A DNA stretch of 64,000 bases from Botryococcus braunii (lineage: Eukaryota; Chlorophyta; Trebouxiophyceae), in the NCBI GenBank assembly GCA_002005505.1, contig KV908686.1, positions 1 through 64,000 on the forward strand, given 5' to 3'. Below, in pieces: positions 61,652-62,176 of the stretch; positions within the stretch are counted from its first letter, which is position 1, and every line of letters begins with the position of its first letter. The translations under genes and the position numbers were made by a program. The notes beneath the pieces were generated by a model. That model worked only from the letters and a program-made list of their open reading frames with translations, was not told the origin of the DNA and searched no databases.

Positions 61652-62176
61652 ATGGGACGAACGAAGCAGAGCGGGAGGATGTTGACCGGCAGTAAAAGAC
61701 CTTTTATTCCCCCAACTCCTTCACCACCTACATATGATAGCCTGAGGAGAGCTGGAGGAGATACGGGACCGAGGACACCAGAAGAACGAGCATTTCTAGT
61801 GAAGGATTTTGTTAGCCGCGCGTACGGACTGGGCAAAGTCGAACAGCCTCTGTGGTTCAGACGACGATTCTCTGTTTACCCAGCCTACAAAGTAACTGCG
61901 TGGGAGTGTTCATTCATCAACGCGGACCCAGGCTTCGTCACGCGAGCATTATTTGAACGACACCTACAACAGCTCGGAGGACCCAGCAAACCCGAGTATT
62001 GGGAAGAAAGGGCAGCCTACACAGCAGTGGAGTGTGCTCTCGCCACTCTTGACGAGGACTTCCTACTTTCCTTTCTGGGCAGCAGAAAAGGATTCAGCCC
62101 AGAGGAGTGGTGCACGGACACAGACAACGGAGACGAGGACGGGGACTCGCAGCGGTCAGAACCTAACGCAGACTGA
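61652..62176 (+). CDS. Copia H extra 5' ORF with H3-tail-like N-terminus
   Basis: 174 codons, intact, starting 44 bases after the primer site and ending 11 bases before gag. The N-terminus MGRTKQSGRMLTGSKRP aligns without gaps to histone H3 ([17 protein letters not shown]), keeping R2, T3, K4, Q5, R8, T11, G12, K14 and P16, with Met at the H3 K9 position. Later: SPPTYDSLRRAGG (PPxY), PRTPEERAFLVKDFV, YPAYKVTAWECSFINADPGF, and an acidic end DNGDEDGDSQRSE. It is a clear but distant homologue of the copia A, B and C ORFs. The function is unknown to me. Confidence 0.87.
   Translation: MGRTKQSGRMLTGSKRPFIPPTPSPPTYDSLRRAGGDTGPRTPEERAFLVKDFVSRAYGLGKVEQPLWFRRRFSVYPAYKVTAWECSFINADPGFVTRALFERHLQQLGGPSKPEYWEERAAYTAVECALATLDEDFLLSFLGSRKGFSPEEWCTDTDNGDEDGDSQRSEPNAD

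Follow-up and report, generated by a model that had tools for sequence, protein, structure and literature searches.

We identified four copies of an additional ORF (ORF0) ahead of gag in copia-type retrotransposons on a 64,000-nucleotide stretch of the Botryococcus braunii genome, hereafter the window. Judged from sequence comparison, ORF0 is very probably a retrotransposon-encoded mimic of the histone H3 tail that is maintained by selection. The H3 likeness is stronger than first described, and phylogenetic groups of ORF0 differ by the residue at the position of H3-K9. For the explanation as a whole, i.e., that a transposon encodes an H3-tail mimic and that its Met-bearing branch blocks H3K9 methyltransferases, leading to escape from silencing, we consider the chances to be about even.

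The ORF0 family and its carrier elements

All four ORFs of 165–174 codons that had been predicted, here named A, B, C, and H after their elements, were re-read intact (Table 1). Direct reading of the forward strand at A and B showed it to be full of stops or non-coding. The original prediction of four diverged elements was correct in that four exist, but understated, because they represent two clades of a large family. Each of three ORF0 queries yielded at least 150 scored matches in the own 176-Mb genome, in which the window belongs to contig C429; these counts are lower bounds, with 150 matches scored from about 800 first-look candidates per query. Stop codons were present in nine of the 150 scored matches of one of these searches. 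ORF0 H has identical or near-identical copies across the genome. The closest public proteins are B. braunii gene models with 94% identity to ORF0 C and 99% identity to ORF0 H. Beyond Botryococcus, two JGI metagenome proteins were the only relatives found, and no relative was confirmed on the viral contigs searched. A divergent relative (L080, G000:C329:136062-136760) carries the tail ARTPKWRKGLYVHRPARREI, with the start codon absent from its expected place.

The ORF0 body is small, predicted to be helical, without a recognised fold, and followed by an acidic C-terminus. The AlphaFold model of ORF0 H has pLDDT values below 50 at residues 1–15 and 155–174 and seven helices between residues 28 and 142. 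Among the last 30 residues (62084-62173 in H), 7–13 are D/E in the five copies checked. A Pfam search with the four window ORF0s was negative up to E 1, and the whole ORF0 C retrieved nothing from the PDB up to E 10.

Table 1. Positions of ORF0 genes and associated features of elements A, B, C, and H in the window.
Feature	Position	Strand	Remarks
5' LTR of element H	60865-61594	+	TG...CA, ~730 bp; edges from comparison with other copies
Direct repeat in H LTR, first copy	61096-61241	+	146 bp
Direct repeat in H LTR, second copy	61425-61570	+	146 bp
Primer-binding site of element H, GGTTATGGGCCCACC	61595-61609	+	directly after LTR end
ORF0 of element H	61652-62176	+	174 codons; H3-like tail, proline-rich linker, helical body (predicted), acidic C-terminus
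H3-like tail of ORF0 H, MGRTKQSGRMLTGSKRP	61652-61702	+	Met at H3-K9 position
gag ORF of element H	62188-63603	+	11 bases past ORF0; weak Pol_BBD match, below Pfam cut-off
Primer-binding site of element C	34935-34949	+	15 bases identical to element H site
ORF0 of element C	35001-35498	+	165 codons, H3-like tail
gag pieces of element C	35550-36520	+	
ORF0 of element B	32479-32976	-	165 codons, H3-like tail
ORF0 of element A	6138-6635	-	165 codons, H3-like tail; placed in ORF0 tree
gag ORF of element A	4754-6091	-	directly downstream of ORF0; called by position and likeness to other gag ORFs
Direct repeat pairs upstream of other ORF0s	6727-6869/7049-7191; 33069-33212/33391-33534; 34442-34585/34766-34909		

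The order LTR, primer-binding site, ORF0, gag identifies ORF0 as the first long ORF of the internal region. It starts 57 bases after the start of the primer-binding site in element H, and elements A and C have the identical 15-base site 66 bases before ORF0. We take this site to pair with the part of initiator tRNA-Met around the anticodon loop. No exact match to it was found in the B-like copies L086 and L088. Features of Ty1/copia elements were recovered from separate copies. An H-type copy on contig C153 has paired TG...CA LTRs and is flanked on both sides by the 5-bp duplication GTTCT. Copia-type gag/pol domains are present in the pol of element C, which probably continues at 42711-44264, past an inserted Gypsy element, with Pol_BBD and gag_pre-integrs above and rve just below the Pfam cut-off. 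RVT_2 was detected in the neighbouring fragment 33773-34246, so that integrase and RVT_2 are on separate pieces. The gag ORF of element A had no Pfam match. Two observations point to recent activity: the two LTRs of the C153 copy are identical across 534 compared of ~730 bases, and over 485 bases the H LTR of the window has identical counterparts at several loci.

A pair of 143–146-bp repeats is located upstream of all four window ORF0s, with 98–100% identity within an element and ~25% divergence among elements A, B, and C. In H and C, the first repeat copy runs into CAG/GT and the second into CAG/G (slash, putative junction), and the stretch between them could thus be an intron. The upstream repeat is single in an H copy at C429:70252 (L006). 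Other repeats were observed in the window. Direct repeats at 36540-36671 and 42551-42682 (91% identity) surround the Gypsy element that seemingly interrupts gag/pol of element C. A perfect 204-bp repeat (63516-63719 and G000:C429:65642-65845) begins near the end of the H gag frame. The copies of a duplication (28277-28576/29943-30242; also 29032-31167) lie 1,666 bases apart, and each unit holds a further 138-bp repeat pair spaced 332 bases, much like the repeats upstream of ORF0.

Likeness to the H3 tail and constraint on the ORF0 N-terminus

The tail of ORF0 H aligns with H3 without gaps from Met1 and is identical at 10 of 17 positions (Met1 counted), with Met at K9, and a ten-residue block of ORF0 B is identical to H3 residues 2–11 at nine positions; both alignments agree with the original prediction. 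The closest H3 likeness is outside the window, in L084 and relatives of the H clade, whose tails (MARTRQTGRMSTGG) match 10 of 13 H3 residues. We used the first 20 residues only as phmmer queries against 177,635 distinct PDB sequences, and H3 was the top match for all three tails tried, with an E-value below 0.01 for L084 only. L084 had 133 matches (best E 0.0052), the best 60 of which comprised 59 H3 and one Cse4, the centromeric H3. ORF0 B had 81 matches (best E 0.24), the best 60 of which were all H3, including two H3/CENP-A chimeras, and ORF0 H had a single match, to H3 (E 0.44). The PDB is rich in H3 peptides, and the ranking of matches is therefore more telling than their E-values. In these alignments, Met1 of the L084 and H tails is paired with Met1 of H3, and residue 4 or 5 of B with H3 residue 1 or 2. 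A whole-family profile also retrieved H3 first (E 0.23); its 18 PDB rows consisted of eight H3 or Cse4 and ten TRPV3, the latter matching the ORF0 body.

In sequence, the likeness is confined to the tail. In profile–profile comparison, the ORF0 family matched H3 at residues 1–18 only (P 5.2e-6), the H3 core gave E 0.38 over 12 columns, and by sequence ORF0 has an H3-like N-terminal tail and no recognisable histone core. The original prediction had allowed that short basic matches can arise by chance. When the own residues of the tails were shuffled at positions 2–14, the H3 identities of L084 were reached in none of 200,000 shuffles and those of H in 62; eight tails other than L084 ranged from 24 to 842 per 200,000, the weakest of the nine being 842. 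Chance matching from basic composition is thus rare. Three host H3 genes were found, all with a standard H3 tail. The host also has a CENH3-like histone gene (L064, G000:C224:264756-267932).

Constraint was ranked in 8-codon windows by lowest pN among copies that are not independent, using 111 of 122 loci and representatives less than 92% identical to each other (10 K-clade, 17 H-clade; clades are described below). In the K clade, to which A, B, and C belong, KQTARKTT has a pN of 0.045 and a pS of 0.70 and ranks 8th of 158 by lowest pN. Windows starting at 0–4 rank 92–118, and those starting at 5 and 6, which overlap most with KQTARKTT, rank 48 and 27. ORF0s A, B, and C encode KQTARKTT with differing synonymous codons. 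These large synonymous differences place the conservation of the tail at the protein level. In the H clade, RTKQSGRM ranks 17th of 167, windows starting at 3–6, which take in the variable position 10, rank 70–113, and those starting at 7–14 rank 143–162. Column counts among the 17 H-clade representatives are R2 17, T3 16, R4 15 (K in the other two), Q5 14, G7 17, R8 17, M9 16, S10 8, T11 14, G12 16, G13 5, and K14 3, i.e., positions 1–9, 11, and 12 are conserved, position 10 varies, and the sequence is variable from position 13 on. The whole H-clade tail has a pN/pS of 0.34 vs. 0.30 for the body, and the core R2–R8 has 0.19 in motif-picked sequences, a set on which we do not base the claim of tail conservation. 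Taken over its full length, the tail of this clade is under no stronger constraint than the body; this and the ranks of the windows with position 10 count against the overall explanation. The N-terminus is nevertheless not a merely variable basic sequence devoid of a shared register, as the H3-like block is conserved and its flanks vary.

Three branches that differ at the H3-K9 position

In a tree of the ORF0 body calculated without the tail (41 rows; 34 rows in another run), three groups are resolved, each with its own residue at H3 position 9. Sequences were sampled by whole-protein similarity plus chosen diverged matches, and the tail was not a criterion. Groups M (24 rows), K (14 rows), and R (2 rows) each form one side of a branch, with bootstrap/SH-aLRT support of 100/100, 100/97, and 97/90, respectively. 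The single copy with Ile (L108) is outside all three groups in the 41-row tree and inside the M branch in the drawn 34-row tree. Residues at position 9 were counted at 122 loci without conditioning on the tail. The M branch, corresponding to the H clade, has Met at 67 of 68 loci, the exception being L108. The K branch, which includes the A/B/C type, has KQTARK at 46 of 54 loci. Both counts extend the shared H3 register of diverged forms, first noted in two tails, to the copies sampled. The R branch consists of the two metagenome relatives with Arg. Hence, the suggestion that Met at K9 makes the tail a poison could be true solely of the H branch, since A, B, and C keep Lys and the metagenome branch has Arg.

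Three H-clade loci deviate from the motif, namely L104 (GRM kept, S at position 5), L109 (M kept, R8 replaced by Q), and L108. Among the eight K-clade exceptions are L057 (T6A), L087 (R8G), the divergent L080, and five degenerate or frame-broken copies (L089, L090, L126, L127, L128). R8 is kept in all but one of the 55 distinct H-clade sequences. A Met or Ile in place of the target lysine, preceded by Arg, is the pattern of a K-to-M mimic and occurs in the M branch only. Lysine in an (A)RK(S/T)-like motif, the pattern of an H3K9 methylation mimic, occurs in the K branch.

Putative function, alternatives, and known systems

A decoy of the silencing machinery, as originally proposed, appears to be the best-supported function of ORF0. 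The protein, presumably the product of the first long ORF that follows the primer-binding site, would display a flexible imitation of the H3 N-terminal tail on its helical body. For the M branch, the most likely mode of action is that known from H3K9M or EZHIP. The tail would occupy, together with SAM, the active site of the H3K9 methyltransferase of the host without being turned over, and the inhibited enzyme would leave less H3K9 methylation and weaker silencing of the element. The K-branch tail may serve as decoy substrate or, if methylated, as ligand of H3K9me readers. ORF0 expression, nuclear entry, enzyme binding, inhibition, and anti-silencing are steps that we infer.

Replacement of K by M is known to be inhibitory (PMC5030085, PMC6513997). 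H3K9M causes SAM-dependent trapping of Clr4 in fission yeast, and in the G9a–H3K9M crystal peptide residues 3–12 are ordered and Met fills the pocket for lysine (PMC5030085). Conservation in the M branch likewise stops after H3 position 12. GLP contacts H3R8 extensively and forms two hydrogen bonds to K4, trimethylation of which lowers efficiency (PMC2797608). EZHIP (CXORF67) is inhibitory with M or I at its key position, but not with K or R (PMC6513997). The M branch keeps residues of the methyltransferase groove (basic 4, Q5, R8, T11, G12), has lost the modifiable K4 (mostly R) and K9, and has often lost S10 and K14. Its sole non-Met residue is Ile, inhibitory in EZHIP, for which a single base change also accounts. 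From the groove residues and the M/I precedent of EZHIP, we regard inhibition of H3K9 methyltransferases by the M branch as a serious possibility, at slightly less than even chances. Lys and Arg are non-inhibitory in EZHIP, and inhibition therefore cannot be the common function of the family; the role of the K and R branches must differ. More tentatively still, the M-branch protein could be an 'oncohistone' of natural origin, whose diffusible H3 tail resists modification (K4R, A7G, K9M) and traps H3K9 methyltransferases, with the sister branches as other states of an arms race.

Some features of the start codons bear on this explanation. None of 37 distinct K-clade sequences has a purine at -3 of the start codon, which counts against it. 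At least seven H-clade copies (L082, L102, L104, L105, L106, L110, L111) have an in-frame ATG eight codons upstream with no stop between, and a start there could bury the H3-like tail. On the host side, no H3K9 methyltransferase was recognised, which also counts against the explanation. A Pre-SET search gave no match, and neither did its controls. The host SET exons found presumably belong to classes other than H3K9 methyltransferases, and no SET domain was recognised near the SRA exons at C126. Chromodomain matches were obtained in five Gypsy-type ORFs of the window (38260-42078, 57901-61083, 45124-47433, 2255-3367, and 14673-16271, the last below the Pfam cut-off). They suggest that H3K9 methylation exists in the host and that elements with H3K9me readers adjoin elements with H3 mimics.

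Certain H3 readers recognise the free H3 N-terminus, and an HP1-type chromodomain would bind QTARK after methylation. The tail could be a ligand of H3 readers (WDR5, PHD, or chromodomain types). By binding such chromatin proteins it would tether ORF0, along with the particle or pre-integration complex, and so serve nuclear import or the targeting of integration. An Ala or Gly residue following Met1 and the invariant R2 of the M-branch representatives suit recognition of a free N-terminus, and the conserved QTARK of the K branch suits an HP1-type chromodomain once methylated. R2 is outside the peptide seen in G9a, so that the M-branch tail may have a further reader, a point against the methyltransferase explanation. 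However, in the K branch additional basic residues precede the H3-like block and position 3 varies, a poor fit for readers of the extreme N-terminus, and reader binding leaves Met9 unexplained. We consider tethering unlikely, yet the strongest of the alternatives. An ordinary nuclear-localisation or nucleic-acid-binding stretch that is H3-like by composition is distinctly less probable. The strongly basic K-branch tails would agree with it, but tail-only PDB searches return H3, composition-keeping shuffles rarely reach the H3 likeness, and the K branch conserves KQTARKTT while the preceding basic residues change identity.

It is very improbable that the tail is a functionless relic of a captured first exon of H3 or CENH3. 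The H3 likeness does end at about residue 16–18, the reading frames of host H3 genes break off after SAPATG, apparently at an intron just past the tail, and the CENH3-like gene L064 also opens with an H3-like tail. Tail codons, however, differ widely at synonymous sites while the protein is conserved, indicating purifying selection. At the DNA level, 24–35 of 54 bases are identical to H3 or CENH3 genes, with no consistent favourite, which demonstrates neither recent capture nor a particular source gene. Old capture of H3 or CENH3 followed by selection is possible and compatible with the mimic explanation. Least probable of all is conservation of Met9 as an alternative start codon: the public gene model P0011 begins there and copy L081 keeps Met9 without the first ATG, but the residues ahead of Met9 are conserved in the protein and Met1 is flanked by a purine at -3 and by G at +4 in all but one of the 55 distinct H-clade sequences.

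Known H3K9 mimics carry an ARK(S/T)-type motif. TARKTT of the K branch resembles the H3K9 mimics among H3K9me2 writer and reader partners (PMC10611923), which are cellular proteins, whereas the K-branch protein is encoded by a transposon and its methylation is hypothetical. The M branch shares Met9 in an H3-tail context with R8, T11, and G12 with the H3K9M mutant histone (PMC5030085). It differs in being a transposon protein, known from sequence, with no recognised histone core, A7 changed to G, and K4 mostly R. EZHIP, an H3K27M-like PRC2 inhibitor, is likewise a non-histone protein with a K-to-M peptide and Arg before Met, but is a mammalian cellular gene product aimed at K27, whereas the M branch has the K9 register at the N-terminus of a mobile-element protein (PMC6513997). 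Geminivirus TrAP is a parasite protein that is reported to relieve H3K9-dependent silencing by inhibiting SUVH4/KYP; unlike ORF0 it is viral and binds the KYP catalytic domain, and the abstract describes no histone-tail mimic (PMC4606454). VANC of Arabidopsis VANDAL transposons is also a transposon-encoded anti-silencing protein (PMC5735166, PMC10398659); as compared by description only, its action is sequence-specific and results in a loss of DNA methylation (PMC5735166). Plant LTR retrotransposons can have an extra sense ORF upstream of gag, like ORF0, but their additional ORFs are commonest between pol and the 3' LTR, and the word 'histone' is absent from the main text of that paper (PMC7264820).

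Each by itself, histone mimicry, K-to-M inhibitors, and anti-silencing proteins of transposons have precedents. Their combination in a retrotransposon did not come up in our searches of the open-licence PMC literature, which has most subscription papers outside its scope, and these searches showed no H3-tail mimic encoded by a transposon. Counter-measures of transposons to chromatin silencing are known for few elements. If the explanation is true, residue 9 of the tail would decide whether the silencing machinery is hijacked or poisoned, with K9 as decoy substrate or reader bait and K9R as an inert mimic. The M branch would then be a natural K9M inhibitor, directly testable with peptides, in yeast, and in plants, and could be used as a genetic tool to counter H3K9 methylation. 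K-to-M mimicry would have evolved outside mammals.
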